This document shows positions 43,163 through 62,361 of a stretch of DNA of 64,000 bases, piece by piece. The notes beneath the pieces are model-generated. The model was not told the origin of the DNA. It searched no databases and worked only from the letters and a program-made list of their open reading frames with translations. Location of the stretch: NCBI RefSeq assembly GCF_014518425.1, contig NZ_JACVCU010000002.1:124001-188000 (forward strand), in the 5' to 3' direction. The DNA comes from Terrabacter sp. MAHUQ-38 (GTDB lineage: Bacteria > Actinomycetota > Actinomycetes > Actinomycetales > Dermatophilaceae). A program made the translations under genes and the position numbers. Within the stretch, counting starts at the first letter, position 1; every line of letters starts with the position of its first letter.

Positions 43163-43176
43163 GGGGCGAACGTCCC
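43163..43176. promoter_or_regulatory. DosR-like box
   Basis: GGGGCGAACGTCCC: exact match to GGGNC-N4-GNCCC, 60 bp before the 4-TM gene at 43103. Confidence 0.65.
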
Positions 43177-43426
43177 GCCCGACCTCCACAGGACATCAAT
43201 GCGGTTGCCGCCTGCGGTCGATGCCGGGGTCACAGCGATCACTTCACTACGGCTGCCCCGCGACCGTGGCGGGGGCGCCGAGGCCCCACTCGCACGCCTG
43301 CCGACACTGCCTGCCAGCAGAACGTTTGCAACGTAGACGGCCCATTGGTGCGGCCGGAAGGCGGTGGCGGTGACGCCAAGTGACCGCTCGGGCCCCAGGG
43401 GGTGTGGTGGCGGTGCTCCAGCCTGC

Positions 43427-43440
43427 AGGCCCTTGGACCC
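43427..43440. promoter_or_regulatory. DosR-like box, one mismatch
   Basis: AGGCCCTTGGACCC (reverse complement GGGTCCAAGGGCCT), 113 bp before the beta-CASP gene at 43553; differs from the consensus only at the outermost base. Confidence 0.6.
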
Positions 43441-43552
43441 TGGTCGGCTCGTTGCCACCACGTAGCGTCATGGCTGACGGTCAGATATGACGACCACGAA
43501 GCACGACTCTCACCACGGCGGAGCCGGTGGACACCTACGCTGAGGAGCAGCC

Positions 43553-44923
43553 ATGACCACACTCACGTTCCTGGGCGCAGCCGGAACCGTCACCGGCAGC
43601 AAGTTCCTCCTCGAGGACGAAGACCGACGGGTGCTCGTGGACTGCGGTTTATACCAGGGCGAGCGCCAGTGGCGCCGACTCAACTGGGAGGACCCCGGCG
43701 TGGAGGCCGGCGCCTTGACGGACGTCGTGCTCACTCACACCCACCTCGACCACTGTGGCTACCTACCGGCCCTCGTGCACCACGGCTACACCGGACCGGT
43801 CTGGGCCACGGCAGGCACGGCTGCATTGGCCGACATCGTGCTGCACGACGCCGCGAAGCTCCAGGAAGAGGACGCGGCCAACGCGCAGGCATGGGGTTAC
43901 TCCAAGCACCACCCCCCACTCCCCCTGTACACGTGGACCGATGCCGATCGCGCCATCGAGCTGATGCGGATCTGCGAGTTCGGGAAGCCGACGACGCTGG
44001 AGTCCGAGGCCGTGCTCACCTTCGTCCGGGCCGGCCATGTTCTCGGGTCCGCGTCGGCACACGTCGCCCTCGGCGCCGCCAGTGTTCTCTTCTCAGGCGA
44101 TCTCGGACGTCCCAGCCACCCCTTGCTGCTCCCCCGCGACCGACCGCCGGCGGCCCGCACCGTAGTGGTGGAGTCGACGTACGGCGACCGCGTGCACCCC
44201 GACGAGCATGAGGGACACCAGGTACTCGGCGACGCCGTGCGCCGGACGATCGGTCGTGGCGGCTCGGTTCTGATCCCGGCGTTTGCCGTCGATCGCACCG
44301 AGCTGGTCCTGTTGGCTCTGGCGCACCTCCGCAAGCAGCACGCGATCCCCGATGTGCCGATCTACGTCGACAGCCCAATGGCTCTGGCTGCGCTTGACGT
44401 CTACCAGCGGCCGGAGCACCAGGCCGAGCTGCGTTCTGACTCCCTGACCGCGCTCAGCGCTCTGTCCCGGCTCCGCACCGCGCGCACCTCCGAGGAGTCG
44501 AAGCGGCTCAACACGCCAGGCACACCGTGCATCATCGTCTCGGCCTCGGGCATGGCCACCGGTGGGCGCGTGGTGCACCACCTCCGCTCGCTGCTCCCCA
44601 ACCCGCGGAACACCGTCGTCCTCACCGGGTACCAGGCTGCCGGCACTCGCGGGCGCCTGCTGCAAGAGGGAGCACGAGAGCTCAAGATGATGGGCCAGTA
44701 CGTTCGAGCACGGGCTGAGATCGTCACTGACGAAGGCTTCTCCGTTCATGCGGACTCCGCCGAGCTCCTGCAGTGGCTCGGCCAGCTACCTGAACCTCCG
44801 AAAGCGGTGTACGTCGTCCACGGTGAGCCCCGCGCCAGCTCCGCGCTTGCCGATGCCATCGGCGACGTGCTCGATTGTCCGGTCGTGGTGCCGAGGCGTG
44901 GTGAGCGGGTGCTCGTCGACTAG
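43553..44923 (+). CDS. Metallo-beta-lactamase / beta-CASP RNA-processing-type hydrolase
   Basis: A 456-residue two-metal hydrolase of the CPSF73/RNase J-like branch. The MBL core has TFLGAAGTVTGSKFLLED, the metal motif LTHTHLDHCGYLP, the later His in FVRAGHVLGSASAHV and the Asp in VLFSGDLGRP. The beta-CASP part has VESTYGDRVH, IPAFAVDRTELVLLAL and IIVSASGMATGGRVVHHL, with His in GFSVHADSAELL near the C-terminus. It probably cleaves RNA. A DosR-like box lies 113 bp upstream and a strong terminator follows. Confidence 0.9.
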   Translation: MTTLTFLGAAGTVTGSKFLLEDEDRRVLVDCGLYQGERQWRRLNWEDPGVEAGALTDVVLTHTHLDHCGYLPALVHHGYTGPVWATAGTAALADIVLHDAAKLQEEDAANAQAWGYSKHHPPLPLYTWTDADRAIELMRICEFGKPTTLESEAVLTFVRAGHVLGSASAHVALGAASVLFSGDLGRPSHPLLLPRDRPPAARTVVVESTYGDRVHPDEHEGHQVLGDAVRRTIGRGGSVLIPAFAVDRTELVLLALAHLRKQHAIPDVPIYVDSPMALAALDVYQRPEHQAELRSDSLTALSALSRLRTARTSEESKRLNTPGTPCIIVSASGMATGGRVVHHLRSLLPNPRNTVVLTGYQAAGTRGRLLQEGARELKMMGQYVRARAEIVTDEGFSVHADSAELLQWLGQLPEPPKAVYVVHGEPRASSALADAIGDVLDCPVVVPRRGERVLVD

Positions 44924-44998
44924 GGCTCCTCGACTAGGCAGCCGCCGGCGCTCAGTTGCTCAGGTTGACCAGTGAAGCGTGTGCTCGGCCACACATGC

Positions 44999-45032
44999 GT
45001 TCGGTGAACAGTCGTCGGACTGCTCACCGAAC
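44999..45032. terminator. Bidirectional terminator hairpin
   Basis: GTTCGGTGA-a-CAGTC-GTCG-GACTG-c-TCACCGAAC forms a 14-bp stem with one mismatched pair. It sits between the convergent beta-CASP gene (ending 44923) and the 2TM gene (ending 45044) and serves both. Confidence 0.85.
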
Positions 45033-45043
45033 AGTGCTCTGCT

Positions 45044-45352
45044 CTACCGCTGTGTGTGGCGCAGCCGTTCCATCTCCGCTTCGATCTGGCGTGGTCCCGG
45101 TGCGGGCGAAAGGACGTCCCAGGTGTGGAACGCCAGCCCGATGCCCCACCCGAAGATCGGGAACACGGGCCAGAAGAAGGCAGCACCCGTGACGTACCAG
45201 AGCGCAACCAAAAGCAGGTTGACCGTGAAGTACGCAAGGGCGTGCGCCATCAAGCCGCGCTTGTCCTCCAGCCGCTTGACGGCTTGTCGACGCAGCTCAG
45301 GCTCGTCGTCGACGAGCTCGGGCATGTGCTCCGGTGTGACTCTCTCAGTCAT
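45044..45352 (-). CDS. 2TM-domain protein
   Basis: A 102-residue protein that matches the 2TM domain: KRLEDKRGLMAHALAYFTVN, then LLLVALWYVTG and PVFPIFGWGIGLAFHTWDVL form two membrane helices around a Trp/Pro-rich hairpin. The acidic N-terminus and charged C-terminal helix (QIEAEMERLRHTQR) face the cytoplasm. The function of the family is unknown. A box (GGGCCGAACGTCCC) lies 63 bp upstream. Confidence 0.85.
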   Translation of the reverse strand: MTERVTPEHMPELVDDEPELRRQAVKRLEDKRGLMAHALAYFTVNLLLVALWYVTGAAFFWPVFPIFGWGIGLAFHTWDVLSPAPGPRQIEAEMERLRHTQR

Positions 45353-45414
45353 CTACGACACCTCCTCTCTCCCTTCAGCCTTACGTCGGCAGACGCCCCC
45401 GGCGGGGCCGAACG

Positions 45415-45428
45415 TCCCGCCATCAGGG
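45415..45428. promoter_or_regulatory. DosR-like box
   Basis: GGGCCGAACGTCCC: exact match to GGGNC-N4-GNCCC, 63 bp before the 2TM gene. Its right half (GAACGTCCC) is identical to that of the box at 43163. Confidence 0.7.
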
Positions 45429-45516
45429 CCTGCTGGCGAGTGAAGTCCGCGACACGACAGCGATCCGGCGTTGCACTGGACGCGTCGGGCGAGGGACGGA
45501 AAGGATTGGCATACCG

Positions 45517-45987
45517 TCAGCCTTGCGGAGGCTGCGGCCGCGGCGCCTCCGAGGCTCGCGCGAGGGCCATCAGGCCTACCAGGACGCCGATGCCGCTTCC
45601 CGCCATGCCAACCCCTATCACCCAGCGAGCGAGCAGATCCCAGTCAAAGCTGCTGTCGCCGAAGTCGAAGGGGAAGACCTGCCAGATGCGTACCAGCGCA
45701 GCGATTCCCACGACGTTCTGGGTGATGTCACCCAAGGCCTTGAACCACGGAGGGTCGCTCATGACATAGAGGGCGTTCGCAACAAGGCCGACCACGATCG
45801 ACGCGTTGACGAGGCCGAGCACGCGTGGAGTGTCGCCGGTCAGGAACGGCACAGCAGTCCAGCCCGGCCACTCGTTGATGGCGAACAGCAGGCCCGCGTT
45901 GACCACCAAGCCCACGGTGTAACCCAGGCGACGGGACGCCAACGACGGACGCTGTCGGCGCCGCTGTGCGGTTGTAAGAGACGACAT
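45517..45987 (-). CDS. Four-TM membrane protein
   Basis: A 156-residue protein with about four hydrophobic helices (TVGLVVNAGLLFAINEWPGW, VLGLVNASIVVGLVANALYV, NVVGIAALVRIWQVFPFDF, LLARWVIGVGMAGSGIGVLV). Not recognised; the repeated helix-hairpin layout suggests an integral membrane protein of unknown function. ATG 45987 has a gaaaggg ribosome site. A GGGACGAAGGTCCG box lies 60 bp upstream. Confidence 0.75.
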   Translation of the reverse strand: MSSLTTAQRRRQRPSLASRRLGYTVGLVVNAGLLFAINEWPGWTAVPFLTGDTPRVLGLVNASIVVGLVANALYVMSDPPWFKALGDITQNVVGIAALVRIWQVFPFDFGDSSFDWDLLARWVIGVGMAGSGIGVLVGLMALARASEAPRPQPPQG

Positions 45988-46046
45988 GGCGGACCCTTTC
46001 GTAAAGCAGCTCCCTCCAGCGAACAACCTTCAGCCACCCCGAAACA

Positions 46047-46060
46047 GGGACGAAGGTCCG
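46047..46060. promoter_or_regulatory. DosR-like box, one mismatch
   Basis: GGGACGAAGGTCCG, 60 bp before the membrane gene at 45987; only the last base departs from the consensus. Confidence 0.6.
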
Positions 46061-46181
46061 CGCAAAGCAGCCACTGCCGGGGCCGCACGGCGAACGCACC
46101 TTCGTGCTGCCTTGAACCTGCTGCGTCCGCTCGAGCAGCGAGCTTCAAGGACGTCGATGTGATCGAGACATCAACCGGGTC

Positions 46182-46195
46182 GGGCCTTTCGGCCC
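46182..46195. promoter_or_regulatory. DosR-like box
   Basis: GGGCCTTTCGGCCC: exact match to the consensus, 74 bp before the DUF4389 gene at 46269. Confidence 0.65.
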
Positions 46196-46268
46196 TGATC
46201 CTGCGGTCGGTCGGCGATGGAACCTGTTGAGGAATGGGCCGATCGATCGACCAACGGAGGCGAAGACG

Positions 46269-47705
46269 ATGAGCACATCAACGTATCCCGTGCACGTTCA
46301 GGCGCACCTGGATCCCGGGCTGAGCCGAGGGCTCTGGCTGGTGAAGTGGCTGCTCGTGGTGCCGCACTACGTTGTGTTGGCGTTCCTCTGGCTCGCGTTC
46401 GGCGTGCTCAGCGTGGCGGCCTTCTTCGCCATTCTCTTCACGGGGCGCTACCCGAGAGCCATCTTCGAGTTCAACGTGGGGGTGCTGCGGTGGACGTGGC
46501 GAGTCTCCTACTACGCGTATGGCGCCTTGGGCACGGACCGCTACCCTCCTTTCTCGCTCAAGGACGACCCCACCTACCCCGCACGGCTCGACGTCGACTA
46601 CCCACAGCGCCTGTCGCGTGGCCTCGTCCTGGTCAAGTGGTGGCTCCTCGCCTTGCCGCACTACCTCATCGTGGGCGTGCTGATCGGCAGCGGCGCGTAC
46701 GTCGTGGCACAGAGGTCCGGCCTCGACCGGACTCCCTTGGTGTGGGGCGGCGGTCTCATCGGTCTTCTGGTCCTGATCGCGGCCGTCGCCCTTCTCTTCA
46801 CCGGTCGCTACCCCCGACCGCTCTTCGACCTGATCCTCGGCCTCAACCGGTGGGTCCTGCGGGTCGCCGGCTATGCGGCCCTCATGACAGACGAGTACCC
46901 GCCCTTCCGCCTCGACCACGGTGGCGACGACCGGGGCGCTTCCGAACAGCTCGCGCTTCCACTCAGCCCGACGACGAACCTCCCGGCACGGAATGCACCC
47001 GCGACCGCCGATCCGTGGACCGCGGGACGCGTGACAGCGCTCGTCGTCGGGGCGGCCGGCGTGATCCTGTCCGTCGGGCTTGCAGGTGCCGGAGGCGCCC
47101 TCGCCTACGCGGACACCGCCATGCGCGACAGCGGCGGCTACGTCATGAGCGGCAGCATGCGACTCAGCACCCAGACGTACGCGGTGACCTCCGCGAACGT
47201 CGAGCTGCACGCCGCCGACGTCTTCAGGGCGATCCCCGCTGACGCGATCGGCGACGTCAAGATCACCGTGACGGCAGCCTCGGAGAAGCCGGTGTTCGTG
47301 GGCATCGCACCGACCCGTGCCGTCCAGAGCTACCTTCACGGCGTCGCGCGGGCGCAGCTGAGGTCACTACCCGGCGACGCAGCGGGATACACCACGATGT
47401 CCGGGACCGCGCCCACCCGTTCACCCGCCGAGGCCCTGTCCTGGGCGGCGCAGAGCGCCGGCACTGGCACGCACTCCATGGTCTGGCCTGTCGAAGCCGG
47501 CGACTGGACGGTCGTGGTCATGAACGCTGACCGGTCCGCCGGAGTGGACGCGGCAATCGCCTACGGCGCAACCGTCCCCGCCCTGCGGTGGCTCGTCCCG
47601 CTCCTCCTCACGCTCGGCGCCACGGGCCTGCTGGTCGCCATCGCACTTCTCGTCGGCGCAATCGCCACGGCGGCTCGTTCCAGCGAAGCGAGCCAACGAC
47701 CATGA
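46269..47705 (+). CDS. DUF4389 membrane protein
   Basis: A 478-residue protein with two similar N-terminal modules. The first reads LSRGLWLVKWLLVVPHYVVL then ILFTGRYPRAIFEFNVGVLR, and the second LSRGLVLVKWWLLALPHYLI then LLFTGRYPRPLFDLILGLNR: an internal duplication of the DUF4389 domain. Residues about 260-440 form an extracytoplasmic domain flanked by TM helices, ending LVPLLLTLGATGLLVAIALL. Family function is unknown. Flavodoxin gene follows after 115 bp, probably in the same unit. Confidence 0.85.
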   Translation: MSTSTYPVHVQAHLDPGLSRGLWLVKWLLVVPHYVVLAFLWLAFGVLSVAAFFAILFTGRYPRAIFEFNVGVLRWTWRVSYYAYGALGTDRYPPFSLKDDPTYPARLDVDYPQRLSRGLVLVKWWLLALPHYLIVGVLIGSGAYVVAQRSGLDRTPLVWGGGLIGLLVLIAAVALLFTGRYPRPLFDLILGLNRWVLRVAGYAALMTDEYPPFRLDHGGDDRGASEQLALPLSPTTNLPARNAPATADPWTAGRVTALVVGAAGVILSVGLAGAGGALAYADTAMRDSGGYVMSGSMRLSTQTYAVTSANVELHAADVFRAIPADAIGDVKITVTAASEKPVFVGIAPTRAVQSYLHGVARAQLRSLPGDAAGYTTMSGTAPTRSPAEALSWAAQSAGTGTHSMVWPVEAGDWTVVVMNADRSAGVDAAIAYGATVPALRWLVPLLLTLGATGLLVAIALLVGAIATAARSSEASQRP

Positions 47706-47781
47706 CCGGCCGCTCGGAGCGTTCAGGCATGTCTCGCTCGACTGACCACGCACCGGGCCGCACCCTTACCACTGCCCACCC

Positions 47782-47802
47782 GGGGCCGCGAACAACGGCC
47801 CC
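47782..47802. repeat. Hairpin before the flavodoxin gene
   Basis: GGGGCCG-N7-CGGCCCC is a perfect 7-bp inverted repeat, 19 bp before the start of the flavodoxin gene. The spacer is too long for the GGGNC-N4-GNCCC box, so I read it as a leader or intergenic hairpin. Confidence 0.4.
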
Positions 47803-47820
47803 ACCTGAAAGGAGCCGGAC

Positions 47821-48374: not shown

Positions 48375-48388
48375 GGGTCCTAGGTCCC
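48375..48388. promoter_or_regulatory. DosR-like box
   Basis: GGGTCCTAGGTCCC: exact match to GGGNC-N4-GNCCC with a palindromic CTAG centre, 80 bp before the universal stress gene at 48468. Confidence 0.7.
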
Positions 48389-48467
48389 AGCCGTTCAGGT
48401 GGGAGCGACCCGATGCTGGACGTACCGGCCGCGCACGTCGCGTGACCGACGATCTCAGGAGGACACC

Positions 48468-49358
48468 ATGTCAACCCGACTCACCTCACGTCCGGTCGTG
48501 GTCGGCCTCGACGGCCGACAGCCGGGTCGCATCGCCCTGGACTGGGCCATCGATGAGGCGCGCTGGCGGCGTACATCCCTTCGCCTGCTGCACGCGACGC
48601 CGATGCCGCTACGCGGCCGCGCTCCGGAGCCCTCGTCCGAGGTAGCCGCGGGTGATGAGCAGAGCGCCCGCATTCTCGACGAGGCGGTCGACCGGGTGCG
48701 CGCCCTGTCACCGGCCACGCCTGTCTCCACGTCGACCGGGCACGGCAATGCCGCGGTCATGCTGGTAGAGGCTTCGAAAGACGCGTCGTGCGTCGTCGTC
48801 GGCGCACGGACGCGCGGCGCCCTGGCGTCTGCGTTCATGGGGTCCACGTCCGTCGACGTCGCGGCACACGCTGCCGCACCGGTCGTCGTCGTCCGGCAGC
48901 TGCCGGTGGTCCGGCCCAACCGTCCCGGTGTGGTAGTCGGCTCCGACGGGTCGGCGCTGTCGACGGCAGCCATCGCTGAGGGCTTCAGGCAGGCCGACGA
49001 GCGCGGACTGCCGCTCACCGTGGTGCACGCGTGGTTCCTCGACCCCGGCCTGGGCTTGGCGGCATTGCAGTCCGAAGACGCCCTGCGCGCGGCCGGCGAT
49101 GCTGAGCACGCACTGGCGGCGGAGGCGCTCGCAGGGTGGTCCGAGAAGTACCCCGACGTCATGCTGCGCCACCACGTCATCAACGCCCACCCGGTGCAGG
49201 CCCTGGTAGAGCACTCGGACGGCGCGGAGCTCGTCATCGTGGGCAGCCGCGGGCGCGGGGGCTTCGGAGGCCTGCTCATGGGCTCGGTGAGCCAAGGAGT
49301 GCTGCATCATGCGCACTGCCCGGTGATGGTGGTCAAGGCGCCCGCAGACGAAAGGTGA
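48468..49358 (+). CDS. Tandem universal stress protein
   Basis: A 296-residue protein with two UspA domains. Each has the start strand (PVVVGLDGRQPGRIALDWAI; PGVVVGSDGSALSTAAIAEG) and the ATP-binding end (VVVGARTRGALASAFMGSTS; VIVGSRGRGGFGGLLMGSVS) with G-2x-G-9x-G-S spacing, so both halves should bind ATP. It matches Rv2005c/Rv2623-type DosR-regulon proteins in domain order. ATG 48468 has an aggagga site. Its stop overlaps the GTG of the next gene. Confidence 0.92.
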   Translation: MSTRLTSRPVVVGLDGRQPGRIALDWAIDEARWRRTSLRLLHATPMPLRGRAPEPSSEVAAGDEQSARILDEAVDRVRALSPATPVSTSTGHGNAAVMLVEASKDASCVVVGARTRGALASAFMGSTSVDVAAHAAAPVVVVRQLPVVRPNRPGVVVGSDGSALSTAAIAEGFRQADERGLPLTVVHAWFLDPGLGLAALQSEDALRAAGDAEHALAAEALAGWSEKYPDVMLRHHVINAHPVQALVEHSDGAELVIVGSRGRGGFGGLLMGSVSQGVLHHAHCPVMVVKAPADER

Positions 49359-49861: not shown

Positions 49862-52315
49862 TCAGTCTCGGACGTGGTGCGCGTGCCGGACCGACGGCGA
49901 AAGACGGTAGACCGCCTCCACCGCCGCCGCCCCCGCAGCACCGACAGCCAGCGAGCGCCACAGCATCGGCAGCGGCACGTCGAAGGTGAAGAAGCGTGCC
50001 GCGATCGGCAGGACGAACGCGAGCACGGCCAGCAGAACCATCGCGCCGACGAGCGCGACCTTCCACGGGCGGAACGGTCGCGCCAGCACGACGAGGATCC
50101 AGAAGAAGGCGAGGAGCAACGTGACTGTCGCGCCGCTCCCGGGCTGCCAGCACGCCACGTCGGCGACAGCCCCCACGCCGGCCTCGAGTCCGCACCGGTC
50201 AGCGAGCTGTTCACGGGACACACCGTGGTTGGCGCCGGCGAAGAGGTAGGACACGATGACCGCGAGGCCCGCTACCGCTCCCGAAGGCACGGCGAAGCGC
50301 AGAATGCGGCCGAGGAAGCCGGGCAGGTAGCGGCGCCTGTTGGGTCCCAGGGCGAGGAAGAACGCCGGGATGCCGATCGTCACCGCCGACACGAGCGTGA
50401 GATGGCGCGGCAGGAAGGGGAATGGCAGCGAGGCGAGAGCCGCGGCCAGGATCGCGACGAGGCTCATCGCGTTCTTCGCGACGAAGAGGTTGGCCACCCG
50501 CTCGACGTTGCCGATGACGCGGCGACCCTCCGCGAGCACGTCGGGCAGGTGGGAAAAGCGCCCGTCGAGAAGGACCAGCTCAGCGACGGCCTTCGTGGCC
50601 TGCGCGCCGTTACCCATGGCCACGCCGATGTCGGCGTCCTTGAGGGCGAGGGCGTCGTTGACGCCATCGCCCGTCATCGCGACGACGTGCCCGTCGGCCT
50701 GCAGCGCGTGGACGAAGGCCCTCTTCTGCTCAGGCGTGACACGCCCGAAGACGGTGTGCGCGGCGAGCGCTCGACGCAGGACATCTGGGTCGGCCGCGGC
50801 GTCGGGCAGGGTGCGGGCGTCGATCGGCTCGCCCACGTCGAGGCCGACCGCCCGGGCGACGGCCGCGACCGTGACGGGGTTGTCGCCGGAGATGACCTTG
50901 ATGGCGACGTCTTGCTCCGCGAAGTAGGCGAGCGTGTCGCGAGCGTCCGGCCGCACCTGCTCGGTGAGCGTGACGAGGGCCGCCGGCACGAGGTCGGCGG
51001 GCAGCCTCGCGCCGTCGAGCTGCTCCTCGCTGCGGGCGAGCAGAACGACGCGGCGGCCGGAGTCGGCGAGGGCGGCCACGCGGACCCGGATCGCCTCGAG
51101 CGCCGCGTCGGTCGGCTGTGGGTCGGCGGCGAGCAACACCTCCGGAGCCCCGAGCACCCACGTCGAGCGCTCGGCGAAGCAGGCGGCGCTCCACTTGCGG
51201 GCAGAGCTGAACGGGATGGTCCGGGTGCGCTGCCAGCCCGGCGAGGCGAGCGCCGCGGCGACCGCGGTCAGGGTGCCGTTGGCATTGGGGTCATCCGCGA
51301 GGGCACCCAGAGCGCAGCGGATCTCCCCGAGCTCCTGTCCCTCGAGCGGCACGACGTCCTCGTACGCGATCTCGCCGACCGTCAGCGTCCCGGTCTTGTC
51401 GATGCACACGACGTCGACGCGCGCGAGGCCCTCGACTGCCGGCAGCTGCTGCACGAGGACGTCGCTCCGCGTCAGCTGTACCGCAGACAGGAGGAACGCC
51501 ACCGACGTGAGCAGCACGAGGCCCTCGGGGACGAGGCCGACAACCCCCGCCGCCGAACGGATGACGACCTCCTGCCATCCCCGGTCGCCGACGGTGCGCC
51601 ACTGCGACCAGAGCGCAATCGGCAGGGCCGTGACGATGACCCACGTGATGTAACGCAGAAGCCGGTTGACCGACTCTTGGATCTCCGAGTGGGTGCGGGT
51701 GAACTTCCTTGCGTCTGCAGCGATTTGGTTGACGTAGGCGTCCGCGCCGACCCGCCTGGCGTGGTAGCGGCCCGAGCCGGCGACGACGTTGGTACCCGAC
51801 AGAACGTCATCCCCTTCGTCGTGCGCCACCGGGTCGGACTCGCCAGTCAGGTTCGCCTCGTTGAGCTCGAGGCCGGCGCTCGAGACGAGGGTCCCGTCGG
51901 CGGGCACCTCGTCCCCGGTGCGCAGCTCGATGAGGTCGTCCTGGACGACCTCGGTCGTGGGGACGACCCGCACCTGGCCCTCGCGCACGACCCGCGTCGT
52001 GGGCGCGTTGAGCAGGGCGAGCCGGTCGAGCTTGCGTTTGGCAAGGTACTCCTGGGTGGTGCCGATGGCGGAGTTGACGACGAGGACCAGCCCGAAGAGC
52101 CCGTCGGCGTAGGACCCCGTCACCAGAATGAGGACGAACAGCGCGCCCAGGATCGCGTTGAACCGGGTCAGCACATTGGCACGCACGATCTCGGCGATGG
52201 AGCGCGACGTCCGCTCGTCCAGCCGGTTCACCGCCCCGCGCGAGACGCGTTCCGCCACCTCGGCACTCGTCAGCCCCGTGGGCCTGGTCAGCGTCGCGTC
52301 CCCGTAGGTTGTCAC
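49862..52315 (-). CDS. Cation-translocating P-type ATPase (CtpE-like)
   Basis: An 817-residue P-type ATPase. It has the A-domain TGES (NEANLTGESDP), the TM4 motif VGLVPEGLVLLTS, the phosphorylation site VCIDKTGTLTVGE and the hinge MTGDGVNDALALKDADIGVA. Sequence runs such as IAEIVRANVLTRFNAILGAL follow the M. tuberculosis CtpE pattern (a proposed Ca2+ transporter). GTG 52315 starts where the homology starts; longer starts overlap the BON gene and lack it. It is downstream of the BON gene on the same strand and probably shares its promoter and box. Confidence 0.9.
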   Translation of the reverse strand: MTTYGDATLTRPTGLTSAEVAERVSRGAVNRLDERTSRSIAEIVRANVLTRFNAILGALFVLILVTGSYADGLFGLVLVVNSAIGTTQEYLAKRKLDRLALLNAPTTRVVREGQVRVVPTTEVVQDDLIELRTGDEVPADGTLVSSAGLELNEANLTGESDPVAHDEGDDVLSGTNVVAGSGRYHARRVGADAYVNQIAADARKFTRTHSEIQESVNRLLRYITWVIVTALPIALWSQWRTVGDRGWQEVVIRSAAGVVGLVPEGLVLLTSVAFLLSAVQLTRSDVLVQQLPAVEGLARVDVVCIDKTGTLTVGEIAYEDVVPLEGQELGEIRCALGALADDPNANGTLTAVAAALASPGWQRTRTIPFSSARKWSAACFAERSTWVLGAPEVLLAADPQPTDAALEAIRVRVAALADSGRRVVLLARSEEQLDGARLPADLVPAALVTLTEQVRPDARDTLAYFAEQDVAIKVISGDNPVTVAAVARAVGLDVGEPIDARTLPDAAADPDVLRRALAAHTVFGRVTPEQKRAFVHALQADGHVVAMTGDGVNDALALKDADIGVAMGNGAQATKAVAELVLLDGRFSHLPDVLAEGRRVIGNVERVANLFVAKNAMSLVAILAAALASLPFPFLPRHLTLVSAVTIGIPAFFLALGPNRRRYLPGFLGRILRFAVPSGAVAGLAVIVSYLFAGANHGVSREQLADRCGLEAGVGAVADVACWQPGSGATVTLLLAFFWILVVLARPFRPWKVALVGAMVLLAVLAFVLPIAARFFTFDVPLPMLWRSLAVGAAGAAAVEAVYRLSPSVRHAHHVRD

Positions 52316-52431
52316 CGAGCCATTCTCGTGGTGGGACACGAGTATGGCGGGCCTTCGAGCGACCGCATCGACGGCGTCGTCCCCATGGTGGGTGCTCTCG
52401 CTGCTGTCCCAGAGATGTCCGCGGCGGGGTG

Positions 52432-53139
52432 TCAACCAGAGAGCACCATGCTGGTCTCTCCCGGCTCGGGGTGCGACACATGCAGGTTGTTGCGGACGGC
52501 TGTGACACCCGGCGTCGACCATGCGGCATCACCTGCCTGTTCGAACTCGTCCCACGTGAGTACCGTGCCGGTCAGCTCGATCGTGGTGCCGCGCACCGCG
52601 ACGTGGATGTTTGCGGCGTCGTCCTCGGCGTTGCGGAGCAGAGCCGCAAGGATCCTGCGTTTGGCCTCCTCTGCGGCCATGGGCAGCTCGGGCTTGATCT
52701 CTATGATGTTGTGGACCGACCTGACGCCCGGAGTGCTTCGAACCGCCCTGTCGGCCTCATCAAGCTGGTAGCGCCACGGAAGCGACCCGCTGAGCAGTAC
52801 GCACCCGTCGTGGACGGCGAGGTGGACGGCACCCTTGGGGATGGTGGGGTGCGCAGCCATTGCCTTGGCGGCGGCACGGACGATGTCGACGTCCTCGCGA
52901 CCGGAGGAGCGGTTCTTGACGACGAGCTCGTCCGCGACCCCCGTCACGCCCTCGACACGATATGCCGCGTCCAAGGCTGCTTCCTTCTGGGCATAGGTCT
53001 CGACCTCCCCTGAGAGCGTGACGGCGCCCTCGGTGACGGCGACGCCGACGTGGTCGGCATCGACGTCGGGCGACCACCGCAGCTCCTCGCTGACGCGGGT
53101 CTTCAGGCTGTGGTCGGTGCTGTGGAGTTTCTGGGTCAT
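52432..53139 (-). CDS. Triple BON-domain protein
   Basis: A 235-residue protein made of three BON domains (about residues 8-75, 85-150 and 157-225). Each has the strand-helix-strand pattern with HVGVAVTEGAVTLSGEV, VHLAVHDGCVLLSGSLPW and IHVAVRGTTIELTGTVLTW, followed by GVTGV/GVRSV/GVTAV turns. BON proteins bind lipid membranes or polysaccharide and act in envelope stress. No signal peptide. A near-ideal box (GGGACCAAGGGCCC) is 36 bp upstream. Confidence 0.9.
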   Translation of the reverse strand: MTQKLHSTDHSLKTRVSEELRWSPDVDADHVGVAVTEGAVTLSGEVETYAQKEAALDAAYRVEGVTGVADELVVKNRSSGREDVDIVRAAAKAMAAHPTIPKGAVHLAVHDGCVLLSGSLPWRYQLDEADRAVRSTPGVRSVHNIIEIKPELPMAAEEAKRRILAALLRNAEDDAANIHVAVRGTTIELTGTVLTWDEFEQAGDAAWSTPGVTAVRNNLHVSHPEPGETSMVLSG

Positions 53140-53174
53140 ACCTTGAGCGTGCGACGGAAAGACCTTCCTGAGAA

Positions 53175-53188
53175 GGGACCAAGGGCCC
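53175..53188. promoter_or_regulatory. DosR-like box
   Basis: GGGACCAAGGGCCC: exact match, 36 bp before the BON gene at 53139. Confidence 0.75.
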
Positions 53189-53211
53189 GCACTCACCGCC
53201 CTGGGCAGGCT

Positions 53212-53907
53212 TCAGCAGGCCATCAGGCCGACGACGAAGCCCCGGGCGCGCAGTCGTGGGATGAGCAGGTCGAGAGCAGCGACAGTCTGGGAGCGGTCTC
53301 CACCGCCGTCGTGCAGCAGGATCCTGGAGCCACCACGCACGTTTGCGAGCACGCGGCTCACGATGCTCCACGTGCCAGGGCGCGACCAGTCGCGCGGGTC
53401 TACAGTCCAGAGGATCTGGCGCTGACCGCGGCTGGCGATGATCGAGGCGACGCGGGAGCTCGTGGCACCGTACGGGGGCCGGACACAGCGCGGCCGATAT
53501 CCGAGCGCCCCCTCCATCTTGTTCAGCTGCCAGTTGACCCAGTAGTTGGACAGGTAGGTCAGGTTCGGGTGGTTCCACGTGTGGTTGCCGATGAGGTTGC
53601 CGTTCGCCCGGACTGACCGTGTGACCGATGGGTACCACGAGATGTTCTGCCCCAGCTCGAAGAACACCGCGCGCACTCCGTACTTCCGCAGGATCGAGAC
53701 GACCTTCGGCGTCCACGTGGGGTGGGGGCCGTCGTCGAAGGTGAGGTAGACGGTGCCCGCGTATGCCACTGGAACGGCCTCGAGTGCGGTGCCCACCGGC
53801 GCGCGAGCCATCTGCGCCGCGCTCGTATCCGCCTGTCCAGCAGGCACGGTCACGACGGTCAAGGAGACGGCGACTGCCGTGAGTGCAGCTGTGAAGAAGG
53901 CTTTCAT
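53212..53907 (-). CDS. Secreted polysaccharide deacetylase (NodB family)
   Basis: A 231-residue exported enzyme with a signal peptide (AALTAVAVSLTVVTVPAGQA). The NodB motifs are intact: catalytic Asp in YLTFDDGPHPTWTPK, the His metal triad in GNHTWNHPNLT, and RPPYGATSS. WTVDPRDWSRPGT and ILLHDGG complete the core. It removes acetyl groups from peptidoglycan or chitooligosaccharide outside the cell. ATG 53907. A box (GGGCCCTCCGTCCC) is 60 bp upstream. Confidence 0.92.
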   Translation of the reverse strand: MKAFFTAALTAVAVSLTVVTVPAGQADTSAAQMARAPVGTALEAVPVAYAGTVYLTFDDGPHPTWTPKVVSILRKYGVRAVFFELGQNISWYPSVTRSVRANGNLIGNHTWNHPNLTYLSNYWVNWQLNKMEGALGYRPRCVRPPYGATSSRVASIIASRGQRQILWTVDPRDWSRPGTWSIVSRVLANVRGGSRILLHDGGGDRSQTVAALDLLIPRLRARGFVVGLMAC

Positions 53908-53966: not shown

Positions 53967-53980
53967 GGGCCCTCCGTCCC
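53967..53980. promoter_or_regulatory. DosR-like box
   Basis: GGGCCCTCCGTCCC: exact match, 60 bp before the NodB deacetylase at 53907. The same spacing occurs at four other genes. Confidence 0.65.
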
Positions 53981-56428: not shown

Positions 56429-57190
56429 TCAACGGGCCAGGTAGCCGCCGTCGATCGGGTAGTACGCGCCGGTGGCGAAGGACGCGGCATCGCTGGCGAG
56501 CCACGCCACGAGCTCAGCGACCTCATGGGGTTCGCCGATGCGCTGGAGGGCATGTTGCCCGGCAAGGACCTGCAGCGTTGCCTCGTCCAGGTTGCGCTCC
56601 AGCAACGGCGTGCGGATGAAGCCGGGGCCCACCGCGTTCACCCTGATCCCGTCGGCGGCATGGTCCCAAGCCGCCACCTGCGTGAGACCGACGACGGCGT
56701 GCTTGGCCGCCGTGTACGCGCTCGCAGTCGGGAAACCCACGGCACCCAGGATCGACGCCATGTTGATGATGGAGCCGCCGCGCCCGCTCGCTTTCATCGC
56801 TCTGATAGCGGCACGCTGGGTGTAGAAGACGCCGTCGAGGTTCACGCGGATGACCTCCCGCCAGGCCTCATCGCTGTAGTCACCGCTCGTCAGGGCGGCG
56901 CCGCCGATGCCCGCGTTGCAGACCGCGACGTCGACGTGGCCGAGGGCGCTGAGTGTCCCAGCTATCGCGGCGTCCACCGAGGCCGGGTCGCCCACGTCCA
57001 CCACCACGCCGTGTGTCCGACACTCGACAGCGTCCAGCTCCTTGAGCACCAGCTCGATCTGGTCCCAGTCCTGGTCCCAGATCGAGATGTCAGCGCCCGA
57101 ACGAGCCATCGTGCCGGCACAGGCACGTCCGATGCCGGACGCCCCACCGGTGATGACAGCAACCTTGCCTCCGAGACCGTATGTGTTCAT
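56429..57190 (-). CDS. SDR-family NAD(P)-dependent oxidoreductase
   Basis: A 253-residue classical short-chain dehydrogenase. The TGxxxGIG site is ITGGASGIGRACAG, followed by the NAG motif (VAVCNAGIGG) and catalytic Ser, Tyr and Lys in SIINMASILGAVGFP and SAYTAAKHAVVGLTQ. PGFIRTPLLERN and GAYYPIDGGYLAR end it. The acidic residue in ISIWDQDWDQ suggests NAD preference. Substrate unknown. A box (GGGCCATTGGTCCC) is 58 bp upstream. Confidence 0.92.
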   Translation of the reverse strand: MNTYGLGGKVAVITGGASGIGRACAGTMARSGADISIWDQDWDQIELVLKELDAVECRTHGVVVDVGDPASVDAAIAGTLSALGHVDVAVCNAGIGGAALTSGDYSDEAWREVIRVNLDGVFYTQRAAIRAMKASGRGGSIINMASILGAVGFPTASAYTAAKHAVVGLTQVAAWDHAADGIRVNAVGPGFIRTPLLERNLDEATLQVLAGQHALQRIGEPHEVAELVAWLASDAASFATGAYYPIDGGYLAR

Positions 57191-57247
57191 CGTGCCCTTC
57201 CTCTCTGCGTCAGCCACCACTCTGCGACGGCATGAAGCGGCGGGGCA

Positions 57248-57261
57248 GGGCCATTGGTCCC
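57248..57261. promoter_or_regulatory. DosR-like box
   Basis: GGGCCATTGGTCCC: exact match, 58 bp before the SDR at 57190. Confidence 0.7.
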
Positions 57262-57351
57262 TCGTGCACCCAGCGGCAGCCACCTCCAGGGAGACGCCGA
57301 CACGGGTTGTCCGCCACCACGAGCTCCTCGCTCCGGGTGCGGCGTCTTCTC

Positions 57352-57365
57352 AGGACCAGTGGCCC
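57352..57365. promoter_or_regulatory. DosR-like box, one mismatch
   Basis: AGGACCAGTGGCCC, 85 bp before the DUF6448 gene at 57450; only the outer base departs from the consensus. The divergent SDR/DUF6448 pair thus has one box for each gene. Confidence 0.6.
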
Positions 57366-57962: not shown

Positions 57963-58015
57963 AGCTCGTCATGCCGGTCGTGAAGGCGGCCGGACTCGAC
58001 CACCAGCCCGCCACC

Positions 58016-58300: not shown

Positions 58301-58326
58301 TGCAGCCACGGCACCTTGCTACCCCG

Positions 58327-58908
58327 TCATGTGGCCTCCAGGGTGACGTCGTGCTCACCGGTGAACTGCTCGATGTCGCCTGCCGCCGTGGCGAGGAGCT
58401 CGTCCGCCAGCCGCCGCAACGCCCTGGCAACGGCTACCTCGTCCCCGATCTCCGGAACCGTGGGGTCGCCAGGGCTCCGGTGGCTGTGGCCCGCCGCAGT
58501 GAGGTGGCGTTGAGAGTCAGCCAGCAGAACCACTTTCGCGTCGGTGTCCTCGTCTGACTCGAAGATCGTGATCCGCACCTGCCAGTCGCGCACTCGGCGC
58601 CACTCGTGGGTGGTCGCAGGTTGTGGCGTGGCGGCTGTGAGTGGCGCGGTGCTGGAAGACGCGGGCGGGCCGGCCTCAACCGGCACCGGCGCGTTCTGCT
58701 CTCGCACCGAGGCGCTCGCTTCCTGCGGTCCGATGCGCAGGACGGAGCCGTGTCCCGGGAAGAACAGCCCGACGTGGCCATCACTCCAGCGGACGAGGAA
58801 CGGCGGTGTGCCGTCCGGACCGCGCGCCTCGAGGACCTCCCCGTCGTGTAGCGGCGCCGAGACGGTGGGAGGAGCGAGGATGATGCGGTCGCCGACATGC
58901 GCTTTCAT
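58327..58908 (-). CDS. DUF1918 domain protein with extended C-terminus
   Basis: A 193-residue protein. Residues 1-58 match DUF1918 (MKAHVGDRIILAPP, GEVLEARGPDGTPPFLVRWS, GHVGLFFPGHGSVLRIG), a small beta-barrel found across actinobacteria. A Pro/Ala linker follows, and residues 105-193 form a dsRBD-like or dodecin-like domain (WRRVRDWQVRITIFESDEDT, KVVLLADSQRHLTAAGHSHR). ATG 58908 with ggagg before it is chosen over ATG 58920. A box lies 113 bp upstream. Confidence 0.85.
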   Translation of the reverse strand: MKAHVGDRIILAPPTVSAPLHDGEVLEARGPDGTPPFLVRWSDGHVGLFFPGHGSVLRIGPQEASASVREQNAPVPVEAGPPASSSTAPLTAATPQPATTHEWRRVRDWQVRITIFESDEDTDAKVVLLADSQRHLTAAGHSHRSPGDPTVPEIGDEVAVARALRRLADELLATAAGDIEQFTGEHDVTLEAT

Positions 58909-59020
58909 GAGTGCCTCCATGGGTGCGAGCGCTCAGTCATGCGGGGCCTTGTCCGGGCGCCGAGCTGGCGCTGGTGTTCTCTGCCGACGCCAGTCTGAGA
59001 CCGTGCGAGCCCCGACTGCA

Positions 59021-59034
59021 GGGCCGTAGGTCCC
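59021..59034. promoter_or_regulatory. DosR-like box
   Basis: GGGCCGTAGGTCCC: exact match, 113 bp before the DUF1918 gene at 58908. Confidence 0.65.
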
Positions 59035-59127
59035 GCGACCCGGAATGTGCCCAGCCACGCGGCGCCGAGAGGCGGGGACGCGGCGGGCCTTCCTGCAGGC
59101 CCGACGAAGGTGCGTGCGCCCATGGCA

Positions 59128-59141
59128 GGGACGAAAGCCCC
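59128..59141. promoter_or_regulatory. DosR-like box
   Basis: GGGACGAAAGCCCC: exact match, 80 bp before the kinase-fusion gene at 59221. Confidence 0.65.
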
Positions 59142-59220
59142 TGATCAGTCTCGGTCAAGAGAGAGCAGGCTGGGGGTGTCAGAGCTTGAGTGTCGGTACG
59201 GCGCCGAGGAGTGAGGCGTG

Positions 59221-60810
59221 ATGAGTGACTGGGGTGCGACGGTGCGCGAGACCCACTCTGCGGTGGTTCTGCTGATGGGCGAGCACGCATACAAGATCAA
59301 GAAGCCGGTCGACCTGGGCTTCCTGGACTTCACGACGCGGGCGTCGCGTGAGCACGCGTGCCACCGCGAGCTGGTTCTCAATCGACGGATGGCTGCGGAT
59401 GTCTACGAAGGAGTGGCCGACGTACTCGGGCCTGACGGCCGACCGTGCGAACACGTCCTGGTGATGCGGCGGATGCCTGACGAACTGCGGTTGAGCACAT
59501 TGGTTGACCAAGGTGTCGACGTGACCGCCGCACTCCGGCACCTCGCCCGAGATCTAGCCGCCTTCCACGCGACCGCAAGGACGAACAGCGAGATCAGCGC
59601 CTGCGGGGCCCCCGACGCGCTCCGAAAGCGTTGGCTGGACAACGTCGGTGCCCTACGACGTCTGGGCGTCACCCTGAATACGCCTGTTGAGCCTTGGATG
59701 ACCGACCGCATCGAGCTCCTGGCGCTGCGTTACCTGGCCGGTCGGGAACCGCTGCTGCATTCACGCATGGCGGCACGTCATGTCCGGGACGGTCATGGCG
59801 ACCTGCTCGCCGACGACATCTTCTGCCTCCCTGACGGTCCGCGGACGCTGGACTGCCTCGACTTCGACGACCGGCTCCGCTGGATGGACGTTGTCGACGA
59901 TGTGGCATCTCTGGCCATGGACCTCGAGCGCCTCGGGAGCCCCGCTGCCGCCATGACCCTGCTGCGCTTCTACGAAGAGTTCTCCGGGGATCGGCAACCA
60001 CGCAGCCTGCAACACCACTACATCGCGTACCGAGCCGTGATGCGCGCCAAGGTGGCCGCCATTCGGGCGGCTGAGCGAGGTGGTGGCGACGACGAATCCG
60101 CTGAGACGAGGCGGCTGTGCGCCATCGGTTTGGACCACCTGGAGAAGGCCAAGGTTCGTCTGGTCCTCGTCGGCGGATCCCCCGCCTCCGGCAAGACGAC
60201 GCTCGCCGAGGCCTTGGGTGCTGCAATGCCCGCCGCGGTCCTGTCGAGTGACCGCGCACGCAAGGAGCTGAGCGGGATGTCGCCGAAGGAGCATGCGCCC
60301 GCGGCATTCCAACAGGGCATCTACCGGCCGGAGACAACCGGCGAGACCTACGCATGGCTAGCGGACCACGCTCACGCCATGCTCGCGATGGGTGAGAACG
60401 TCGTGGTGGACGCATCGTTCGCCGCGGACGTGCTACGCGTGCCGTTCCGCAAGGCATCGGCGGACTCCAACGCCGATCTCGTGGAGCTCTGCTGTCGGCT
60501 CCCGGATGCGGTACGCGAGGCACGATTGACCTCGCGTGCAGCCTTTCCCGACGACCTCAGCGACGCCGACCTCGCGGTCGGCCGCGAGCTCCACGCCTTG
60601 GCGGACCCCTGGCCAGAGGCGGTGGAGGTGCCGACCGGGGGCTCCGGGGCCAACGCCGTCAGGTCGGCGTTGCTGTCCGTCGAGGGGGCAGCACGTTCCC
60701 AGTCCACGCGGACGGAGTCCAGCCACGTCGATGCGGGTCTGGAAAGTCACCGGGCTCAGCGGCGGACGGATCCGTCGTGGGGAGCGTGCCGTACCTCTCC
60801 CCCACGATGA
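59221..60810 (+). CDS. Aminoglycoside-phosphotransferase-like / P-loop kinase fusion (Rv2004c-like)
   Basis: A 529-residue two-domain protein. Residues 1-310 are APH/kinase-like: YKIKKPVDLGFLDFTT (Lys-rich strand), HVRDGHGDLLADDIFCLP (catalytic loop with HGD) and DCLDFDDRLRWMDVVDDVAS (metal loop). Residues 320-490 are an AAA_33 P-loop kinase: VLVGGSPASGKTTLAEALG and SSDRARKELSG, VVVDASFAA. Order and length match M. tuberculosis Rv2004c, a DosR-regulon protein of unknown function (family knowledge). The last 30 residues are low-complexity. A box lies 80 bp upstream. Confidence 0.88.
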   Translation: MSDWGATVRETHSAVVLLMGEHAYKIKKPVDLGFLDFTTRASREHACHRELVLNRRMAADVYEGVADVLGPDGRPCEHVLVMRRMPDELRLSTLVDQGVDVTAALRHLARDLAAFHATARTNSEISACGAPDALRKRWLDNVGALRRLGVTLNTPVEPWMTDRIELLALRYLAGREPLLHSRMAARHVRDGHGDLLADDIFCLPDGPRTLDCLDFDDRLRWMDVVDDVASLAMDLERLGSPAAAMTLLRFYEEFSGDRQPRSLQHHYIAYRAVMRAKVAAIRAAERGGGDDESAETRRLCAIGLDHLEKAKVRLVLVGGSPASGKTTLAEALGAAMPAAVLSSDRARKELSGMSPKEHAPAAFQQGIYRPETTGETYAWLADHAHAMLAMGENVVVDASFAADVLRVPFRKASADSNADLVELCCRLPDAVREARLTSRAAFPDDLSDADLAVGRELHALADPWPEAVEVPTGGSGANAVRSALLSVEGAARSQSTRTESSHVDAGLESHRAQRRTDPSWGACRTSPPR

Positions 60811-60829
60811 CGCGTTCAGCACTGGTGCA

Positions 60830-61066
60830 TTAGTCCAGCGGGAGCAGGTTCGGGCGGCGACGGCCGAACACGAAGTAGGCCAGAGGTCCCACAGTGTTGA
60901 CGAAGGTGGCGCAGGCCCATGCCCAGCCGGGTCCGTTGAGTTCTTCCGGCCGACGGTGACGCAGGTCTCGGAGAGCGACAAGCTGAAGACCCACCTGCAC
61001 GACTGCTCCGATCACGACCCAGCCACGCTGCGGGTTGCTCAGGTCACCCCAGGACTTCTTTCTCAT
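60830..61066 (-). CDS. Small PLDc_N-like membrane protein
   Basis: A 78-residue protein with two hydrophobic helices (GWVVIGAVVQVGLQLVALR and AWACATFVNTVGPLAYFVFG) followed by RRRPN. This is the phospholipase D-type N-terminal anchor seen alone in many actinobacterial small proteins. ATG 61066 has a ggaggagag site. The strand is opposite to the kinase-fusion gene and convergent with it. A 15-bp weak box (GAGCCAAGTGGACCC, 61154) lies upstream. Confidence 0.75.
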   Translation of the reverse strand: MRKKSWGDLSNPQRGWVVIGAVVQVGLQLVALRDLRHRRPEELNGPGWAWACATFVNTVGPLAYFVFGRRRPNLLPLD

Positions 61067-61185
61067 GATGCCTCTCCTCCACGGGCCAACGGACGATCCT
61101 CGACCAGCGGTCCGGGAACTGGCCCCGCCGTGCCTGCCTGCGACAAGAGGCCCGAGCCAAGTGGACCCGGACCTCTGTGGCTTGG

Positions 61186-61779
61186 TCACTTGAGGACGGG
61201 GAAGCGCTGGACCAGGTGCAGGCTCTCCCAGGCGCGACCGAGACCGAACGTGTGGCCGGCCTTCCCGAGCAGAAGCAGGACCAGCACCAGGGCGTAGATC
61301 AGGTGGTCATCCATGAACGGGTTGTTCTCGGGCCAGAGCGCCGCACTCCACATCATCAGCATCAGGGCAACTCCGGAAACGGTCGCGATGCGCATGCAGA
61401 TGCCGAGCATCAGCGCGGCGCCGATGCCGGCCAGGGCGACCATGAAGAGCCAGTTGGCCCAGGCAGCGCCGGCAAAGCTCTGGTAGAAGTCCGCCAGCGG
61501 CCCCTTCGTCCCGAACTGGAGGAAGCCCAACGTCGGCGATCCTTCGTTGATCCAGGCCGCGGGGCCGAAGGTGTCGACCGCGCCCGTCTCGGGATCCCGA
61601 CCCGTCGCGAAGCCGAGGGCCAGCAGCTTGTCGAGGAAGGCCCAGGCGAAGATCCAGCCCAGGGACAGACGTGTCGCGGCAGCGACATAGCGGAAGGCCT
61701 GGCTCTTGGGAACGGCCGCGCTCTCTTCCGCGAGAACGTCCTGCCCGGTGGTCGGCGTGTGACGGGCGATGGTGCTCAT
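61186..61779 (-). CDS. DoxX-family membrane protein
   Basis: A 197-residue protein with four TM helices: TRLSLGWIFAWAFLDKLLAL, WLFMVALAGIGAALMLGICM, RIATVSGVALMLMMWSAALW and DHLIYALVLVLLLLGKAGHT. The DoxX pattern (LGWIFAWAFLDK, GHTFGLG) is clear; members act in quinone or thiol redox at the membrane. Its ATG overlaps the stop of the upstream USP gene by 4 bp. A box at 61863, inside that gene, is 84 bp upstream and may give it its own promoter. Confidence 0.88.
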   Translation of the reverse strand: MSTIARHTPTTGQDVLAEESAAVPKSQAFRYVAAATRLSLGWIFAWAFLDKLLALGFATGRDPETGAVDTFGPAAWINEGSPTLGFLQFGTKGPLADFYQSFAGAAWANWLFMVALAGIGAALMLGICMRIATVSGVALMLMMWSAALWPENNPFMDDHLIYALVLVLLLLGKAGHTFGLGRAWESLHLVQRFPVLK

Positions 61780-62312
61780 CGTCGTCTCCCTTCATGTGAC
61801 TCAGTCGATGGTGCGTTGTTGGTCGTGCGTCCCACGATCGGGCGGCTCACGTCGTCCGTGTAGGGACCAATGGCCCGCGTTGAGCTGGATTCCACGACGT
61901 GAAGTGGGCACCGCGCACGTGCAGCGCAGTAGGCGGCGACGGGGGCCGGTTCGTCGAGGGCGCTCGGACGATCCGCTGCCACAACGAGCCCCACGGCTCC
62001 CCGAGCTCGGGCGACGAGTACCTCGCAGGGATCTCTGCTCGGCGTCTCGAAGGTCGCGTGGATCCGGGGTCTTCCCTGCAGCGCCCTCAAGGCAGCCTCG
62101 AAGATGGCGGTATCCGCTTCGGCACGGTCGTGCGGCTGCAGCCCTTCAGGCAGCACCTGTACGAAGCGCACCGCCACACGGAGCTCGCGCGCCAGACGTA
62201 CCGCCTCGAGTGCGACCTCATGGGCAGACCCGTCAACGCCGAGGCCGGCCACGACCTCTGAGTAGAAGCCGGGCCTCGGACGGGCCTTCCGCGGCACTGG
62301 AACATTCCTCAC
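61776..62312 (-). CDS. Universal stress protein-like, single domain
   Basis: A 178-residue UspA-fold protein. The start strand reads VVAGLGVDGSAHEVALEAVR, the middle RVAVRFVQVLPEGLQPHDRA, and the end VEVLVARARGAVGLVVAADR then CPLHVVESS. The ATP motif is weak (no clear G-2x-G-9x-G), so it may be a non-ATP type. The 30 C-terminal residues after CPLHVVESS are unusual; they overlie the box at 61863. GTG 62312 is the chosen start; TTG 62354 would lie inside box 62348. Confidence 0.75.
   Translation of the reverse strand: MRNVPVPRKARPRPGFYSEVVAGLGVDGSAHEVALEAVRLARELRVAVRFVQVLPEGLQPHDRAEADTAIFEAALRALQGRPRIHATFETPSRDPCEVLVARARGAVGLVVAADRPSALDEPAPVAAYCAARARCPLHVVESSSTRAIGPYTDDVSRPIVGRTTNNAPSTESHEGRRR
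61863..61876. promoter_or_regulatory. DosR-like box within the USP gene
   Basis: GGGACCAATGGCCC: exact match, 84 bp before the DoxX start and within the 3' end of the USP reading frame. It could serve DoxX alone. Confidence 0.65.
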
Positions 62313-62347
62313 CTGCCAACGGTGACTGGGTGGCGGGCGACCGAGCT

Positions 62348-62361
62348 GGGCCAACAGTCCC
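62348..62361. promoter_or_regulatory. DosR-like box between USP-DoxX and the sensor kinase
   Basis: GGGCCAACAGTCCC: exact match. It is 36 bp before the USP start on the minus strand and 79 bp before the kinase start on the plus strand, so it may control both. Confidence 0.7.

Follow-up and report, generated by a model that had tools for sequence, protein, structure and literature searches.

A compact island of predicted DosR-type operators in the genome of Terrabacter sp. MAHUQ-38

Which regulator, if any, reads the short palindromes that recur before genes in one part of the genome of Terrabacter sp. MAHUQ-38? The DNA analysed here, hereafter the window, comprises 64,000 nucleotides (C11:124001-188000) of a genome of 5,156,829 bp (5.16 Mb), and coordinates are window positions unless they carry the contig label C11. 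A first-pass annotation had described fourteen palindromes of the form GGGNC-N4-GNCCC (GGGNCNNNNGNCCC), eleven exact and three with one mismatch, in a dense block between 42.6 and 62.4 kb, and had read them as boxes of the DosR type. We conclude that the palindromes are very probably the operators of a response regulator of the DosR/OsdR type whose gene lies in the same cluster. Strict operators of this kind are almost all confined to one stretch of ~75 kb, from 37.8 kb to about 113 kb in window coordinates and hereafter the island, and this is an unusual trait. We found no prior description of the island in the open-licence literature.

All 11 exact matches to GGGNCNNNNGNCCC in the window fall within 43163-62361, and its first 43 kb contain none. 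Two of the proposed one-mismatch sites (46047 and 57352) were recovered as well, whereas no such site starts between 42199 and 42967, where the third had been placed near 42.6 kb, leaving 13 of the 14; one exact site, given as 45415, actually lies at 45405. Whole-window shuffles contained 6.05 exact sites on average and 1 of 100 reached 11; the window total is thus only mildly raised, and the signal lies in the clustering. The chance rate of the relaxed motif in this genome is about one exact match per 14 kb, not one per 4-5 kb as had been estimated, and at the genome-wide rate 1.37 exact sites would be expected in 43163-62361, eightfold fewer than observed (Poisson P of at least 11, 2e-7, with motif and stretch both picked after inspection of the data). 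The clustering is thus real, but the cluster extends beyond 62.4 kb. Another 16 exact sites follow, the last at window coordinate 112,930, and a one-mismatch site lies on the other side at 37812, upstream of narG. In the 142 kb of C11:104001-246000, 27 of the 28 exact sites fall within C11:167163-236930, and the reversed pattern, used as a control, occurs 7 times.

Two counts favour the view that the palindromes arose by chance from high GC content and were picked out by a selective reading of gaps. Genome-wide, the relaxed motif is no commoner than its reversed control (367 vs 377), and one-mismatch sites are not enriched in the window (117 vs a shuffle mean of 129.9). An even spread of hits over the genome had been named beforehand as evidence against operators, and the relaxed motif comes close to that outcome; the sharper pattern described next does not. 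Against chance stand the clustering, this strict pattern, a matrix trained on foreign sites and compared with control stretches, and a fixed promoter spacing, and we regard chance as extremely improbable.

The bases at positions 4 and 11 of the palindrome had been thought simply relaxed, which they are not. Among the 27 exact sites in C11:167163-236930 (counted by eye), 18 combine an A arm with a C arm, the remainder being 2 A/A, 1 C/C, 2 A/G, 3 A/T and 1 G/T, and the N4 centre of the island sites is WW in most. The symmetric GGGAC-N4-GTCCC occurs 7 times in the genome, twice in the island (reversed control 5). The sharper pattern GGGACSWWNGGCCC, itself derived from island sites, has 17 matches in 5.16 Mb, 16 of them at C11:169405-236943 (68 kb, 1.3% of the genome), and its reversed control has 1. 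Because this pattern was drawn from the island, we also applied GGGMCNWWNGKCCC (23 matches in the genome, 19 in the island; reversed control 8) and a weight matrix built from 88 sites with a WW centre in the DosR loci of other species, the WW rule having been prompted by the island sites. At a threshold of at least 10 bits, the matrix found 36 sites in the 75.7 kb of the island; the 53-kb left flank had none, and 20 stretches spaced over this genome, 400 kb in all, had 5. In 50 runs of a first-order Markov null of 142 kb, such positions averaged 3.46 and never exceeded 8. Positions of at least 12 bits fell outside gene calls in 25 of 30 cases, the calls being crude and covering 79% of the island.

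What do the boxes stand in front of? Distances to start codons had been reported to cluster near 60 and 74-85 bp; with the crude gene calls they are broad, and the fixed distance is instead that to a -10-like element. An A with a T four bases on (A-N3-T), 24-26 bp from the box end, occurs in 26 cases in 39 gene-directed island flanks, compared with 17 for the other 27 offsets (11-40) together, and in 26 island cases a predicted gene start lies within 300 bp on the side of the element. On one side or both, the element accompanies 31 of 37 island sites (the 36 matrix sites and that at 62348), 49 of 88 sites of relatives and 20 of 163 control sites, while in the relatives' flanks it stands at exactly 25 bp in 41 of 176 vs 12 of 326 reversed-control flanks. 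Among matrix matches, the spaced element accompanies 30 of 36 in the island vs 0 of 5 in the 400 kb of control stretches, which again argues against chance. The A-bearing arm is distal in 15 of 20 asymmetric island cases (p 0.04) and in 26 of 33 in relatives (p 0.001), rows in both sets not being independent by descent.

With the A placed at -11, the box centre would therefore lie near -42.5, over the -35 region, as in DevR boxes, which overlap this region at activated promoters (PMC3029386). The genes behind boxes 53175, 74417, 77645, 82294, 90016 and 92001 may be leaderless, since the transcription start predicted in this way coincides with their predicted start codon or is at most 2 bp away from it. 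The same geometry bears on whether the regulator might act as a repressor at the boxes, as could be supposed from those whose distance to a predicted start codon is no more than 35 bp. Repression would not call for a fixed spacing between box and A-N3-T, yet the 24-26 bp observed would place the box over -35, as at the DevR-activated promoters described earlier (PMC3029386), and we hold repression to be highly improbable.

Next to the boxes is a two-component pair. The sensor kinase (565 amino acids) has GAF, HisKA_3 and HATPase domains, Pfam giving a single GAF domain, and the gene of a response regulator of 217 amino acids lies just beyond the window end. Compared with solved structures, the regulator matches DevR of Mycobacterium tuberculosis best (225.7 bits; next VraR, 125.1 bits), and the kinase GAF domain matches 2vzw (168.4 bits), which we take to be DosT, and then DevS (161.9 bits). 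The His of HPPM and the Tyr of NLYL, presumably heme-pocket residues, are kept in the alignments of the kinase with DevS and 2vzw. In the regulator D57, K182, K185 and N186 are invariant in 10 homologues and pair in the alignment with D54, K179, K182 and N183 of DevR, of which we assume the last three to be DNA-contact residues. Judged by these alignments, the protein is a NarL-type DosR orthologue, with D57 as the predicted phosphorylation Asp and with the Lys/Lys/Asn contacts present.

It could still be that the boxes serve another NarL/LuxR-type regulator with a similar operator and not the adjacent DosR orthologue, as the genome contains 29 GerE-domain matches. However, the regulator's next best homologue in this genome is ~40% identical (127 bits vs 458), and a box at 64195, between the kinase and regulator genes, stands 69 bp before the regulator's own gene with TAGTGT in place. 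The motif moreover tracks the presence of DosR across the family, as shown by the survey below, and we consider service to another regulator very unlikely.

Is the operator particular to this lineage, as the first-pass annotation had suggested? In 80 named loci around DosR homologues we counted 88 WW-centred sites vs 9 for the reversed pattern, many loci having none. The A/C form is the commonest in these loci of other actinobacteria (40 of 88), with a modest excess over arm independence (40 vs 31.8 expected, permutation p 0.027), and this commonest box of the Terrabacter island is also contained, as the core, in the narG2 site AGGGACCTTCGGCCCC of Streptomyces coelicolor (Urem et al., 2016; PMC5069765). 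A lineage-specific operator was rejected, the asymmetric A/C form recurring around the DosR homologues of many actinobacteria.

We surveyed 40 genomes of the family. A DosR match (E 1e-60) is present in 24 of them, which together contain 116 strict matches vs 44 for the control; the 16 that lack one contain 8 vs 30. The regulators of other genera (Knoellia, Humibacillus and others) are 65-84% identical to that of the Terrabacter island, those of two family genomes being identical or nearly so to those of Knoellia locipacati and Humibacillus xanthopallidus, which agrees with a place of the Terrabacter genome in the Intrasporangiaceae/Dermatophilaceae group. These genera have the same strict motif but less confinement: 8 of 15 strict matches lie within 56 kb of dosR in one genome (G085) and 0 of 12 within 100 kb in another (G234). 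The original reading of the palindromes as DosR boxes thus gains from four sides, namely the orthologous regulator and kinase in the same cluster, the foreign-trained matrix, the A-N3-T at 24-26 bp and a strict motif that tracks DosR over 40 genomes.

The DosR regulon of M. tuberculosis is scattered, and its targets include universal stress protein (Usp), nar, Rv2632c-like and P-type ATPase genes, all of which are present among the candidate targets of the Terrabacter island. The two systems are also alike in the regulator match to DevR, in a kinase GAF domain like those of DevS and DosT and in boxes that overlap -35 (PMC3029386 for the boxes). They differ in that paired boxes with cooperative binding are common in M. 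tuberculosis (PMC3029386), whereas the island has mostly single boxes. The OsdR/OsdK system of S. coelicolor (Urem et al., 2016; PMC5069765) resembles that of Terrabacter in that a DosR-type regulator and its kinase lie beside Usp and nar genes. There the 16-bp OsdR consensus AGGGCCGATCGGCCCT has C/C at positions 4 and 11, whereas the island has mostly A/C. Eight sites near osdR are said to control 20 of the 22 genes of one region, and 43 sites are predicted before 27 transcription units, many of them far from osdR (PMC5069765), in contrast to the strict operators of Terrabacter, nearly all of which lie in one stretch.

We propose that a GAF kinase of the DosS/DosT kind would sense low oxygen or a related signal, presumably via heme, and would phosphorylate the regulator. 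The regulator would then bind GGGACC-WW-NGGCCC boxes ending 24-26 bp before the A of a -10-like element, and binding would switch on some thirty short transcription units encoding nitrate respiration, universal stress proteins, P-type ATPases, hemerythrin and other dormancy-type proteins. Candidate targets include narGHJI and the genes of Usp, P-type ATPases, Rv2632c-like and hemerythrin proteins.

Several observations weigh against this proposal. Six of the 37 island sites have no A-N3-T at 24-26 bp, and the -10-like element is mostly [CG]ANNNTGG and not TANNNT, a form that may mark dependence on a special sigma factor or on an activator. The box at 62348, before the kinase gene, is weak (7.8 bits) and has no A-N3-T on the kinase side; by eye, the kinase gene may have a promoter and start of its own in TATCCT at 62428 and an in-frame GTG at 62440. 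Both kinase and regulator fall below the NCBIfam cut-offs and are unnamed there, and strict matches are absent from four of the family's genomes that carry DosR. Finally, a few regulon members may sit outside the island, because four off-island GGGMC matches reach 13.0-17.0 bits with the matrix.

The sites and genes in the window are collected in Table 1. A flavodoxin gene (Pfam) also lies in the window part of the island. A wax-ester synthase-like gene at 38783-40414 has no preceding box among the 45 best matrix matches. To the right of the window, where the island was annotated in part, Pfam finds proteins with hemerythrin and CBS domains, a cation ATPase, GH65, Usp and a P-type ATPase with a C-terminal hemerythrin domain. 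The last of these, at window coordinate 92049-94475 behind a strong DosR box, is an odd fusion of a pump with an oxygen-binding domain (residues 670-799). At window coordinate 72479-73615 a hemerythrin domain is fused to two CBS domains, and a strong box (23.0 bits) lies inside the predicted gene. Pieces of an IS110-family transposase are found at the left end of the window (665-1048 and 3618-4976), and a tRNA scan of the window found none.

Table 1. Predicted DosR boxes and neighbouring genes, in window coordinates; motifs in the remarks are the -10-like elements, with their distance from the box end.
Feature	Position	Strand	Remarks
NarK-like transporter (29397-30623) and narGHJI (30652-37623)	29397..37623	-	narG, narH, narJ and narI above NCBIfam cut-offs; NarK family best match but below cut-off
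Predicted DosR box upstream of narGHJI	37812..37825	-	one mismatch; 14.4 bits; GAGACTCG at 26 bp, narG side; 260 bp from crude narG start
Predicted gene, 147 amino acids, no Pfam family, behind box 43163	42660..43103	-	
Predicted DosR box, exact	43163..43176	-	17.3 bits; CACGTTGG at 26 bp
Weak candidate box before metallo-beta-lactamase/beta-CASP gene	43427..43440	+	one mismatch; 10.6 bits; TAGCGTCA at 24 bp
beta-CASP/RMMBL metallo-hydrolase (RNase J-like) gene	43553..44923	+	
2TM-domain protein gene behind box 45405	45044..45352	-	
Predicted DosR box, exact	45405..45418	-	17.9 bits; AAGGCTGA at 24 bp
Candidate box, doubtful	46047..46060	.	one mismatch; 11.8 bits; doubtful because A-N3-T at 24-26 bp is absent in both directions
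Predicted DosR box, exact, C/C type	46182..46195	+	20.7 bits; GAACCTGT at 26 bp
DUF4389 protein gene behind box 46182	46227..47705	+	
Predicted DosR box, exact	48375..48388	+	18.8 bits; GATGCTGG at 25 bp
Universal stress protein gene	48399..49358	+	start more likely about 48468; pyridoxamine-oxidase-like gene next, to 49804
P-type ATPase gene	49862..52522	-	
BON-domain protein gene behind box 53175	52432..53196	-	start more likely about 53139
Predicted DosR box, exact	53175..53188	-	18.3 bits; CACGCTCA at 25 bp
Polysaccharide deacetylase gene behind box 53967	53212..53907	-	
Predicted DosR box, exact, centre without WW	53967..53980	-	10.5 bits; AACAATCG at 24 bp
Short-chain dehydrogenase gene behind box 57248	56429..57283	-	start more likely about 57190
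Predicted DosR box, exact	57248..57261	-	20.7 bits; CAGAGTGG at 25 bp
Candidate box before DUF6448 gene	57352..57365	+	one mismatch; outside the 45 best matrix matches; CAGGCTCG at 25 bp (by eye)
DUF1918 and Rv2632c-like protein gene behind box 59021	58327..58920	-	
Predicted DosR box, exact	59021..59034	-	22.7 bits; CAGACTGG at 25 bp
Predicted DosR box, exact	59128..59141	+	14.8 bits; CAGGCTGG at 26 bp
AAA_33 protein gene behind box 59128	59218..60810	+	
Predicted gene, 197 amino acids, no Pfam family, behind box 61863	61186..61779	-	
Predicted DosR box, exact	61863..61876	-	20.3 bits; GATCGTGG at 25 bp
Exact palindrome before kinase, weak candidate	62348..62361	.	7.8 bits; A-N3-T only pointing away from kinase, 568 bp from next gene on that side
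DosS/DosT-kind sensor histidine kinase gene	62491..64000 (past window end to 64188)	+	GAF, HisKA_3, HATPase; alternative start GTG 62440
DosR orthologue gene, outside window	64278-64931		box at 64195, also outside window

How did a single stretch come to hold nearly all of these sites? Within the genus (9 genomes), the other eight carry 1-6 strict matches each. Seven of the eight have a DosR homologue 51-56% identical to the island's regulator and the eighth has none above 40%; in the tree the seven form a separate clade, whereas the island's regulator groups with that of G225 (84% identical, support 100/96) among the family regulators. An insert in the linker of these seven homologues is suggested by their alignments to the island's regulator, which span 219-236 columns for ~210 residues and in several cases are interrupted near residue 139-160. 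Because the congeners carry a different DosR clade, transfer or differential loss of the cluster is possible.

Genes of the left flank recur in part in congeners at 64-92% protein identity, the nearest well-conserved gene left of the island being that of a 1175-amino-acid protein with two ABC ATPase domains (22477-26004; 86-88% DNA identity in three congeners), and the right flank is poorly conserved. In 11 congener stretches only three island genes have counterparts over the threshold (65%, 50% and a 32% ABC match), and the congeners' own DosR loci share the regulator, a few matches of 32-49% and, in two of them, the kinase (37-38%). No clean boundary or insertion site was found via the flanking DNA in congeners, and the GC content of the island (0.694) differs little from the mean (0.712; single-stretch range 0.683-0.730).

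We incline slightly to vertical inheritance of the cluster within the family, with loss in the congeners, over its acquisition as an island. The 65-84% identical regulators of the other genera form one supported set with the island's own, no clean boundary or integrase was found and the GC difference is small; on the other side, the DosR homologues of seven of the eight congeners are distant and belong to another clade, the remaining congener has none above 40% identity, and few island genes have counterparts in the congener stretches examined. That the whole dormancy programme (sensor, regulator, about thirty polar DosR promoters and their genes) is a portable stretch of ~75 kb, moving between genera and inherited as a unit, we put forward as a tentative and rather doubtful idea.

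In summary, what is unusual about this locus, as far as comparison of sequences can tell, is not the motif or the type of regulator but the near-complete confinement of the strict operators to one island. With 16 of the 17 strict operators of a 5.16-Mb genome in 1.3% of its length, the island offers a compact natural case for the assembly of a low-oxygen regulon. In a GC-rich genome the palindrome alone does not tell the island sites from chance matches, whereas a box model trained on foreign sites and combined with the distance to the -10 element does. The island also informs the grammar of the operator, in which the A arm is mostly distal, the C arm proximal and the distance to -10 set, and it bears on whether inheritance of an entire regulon as one unit is possible.

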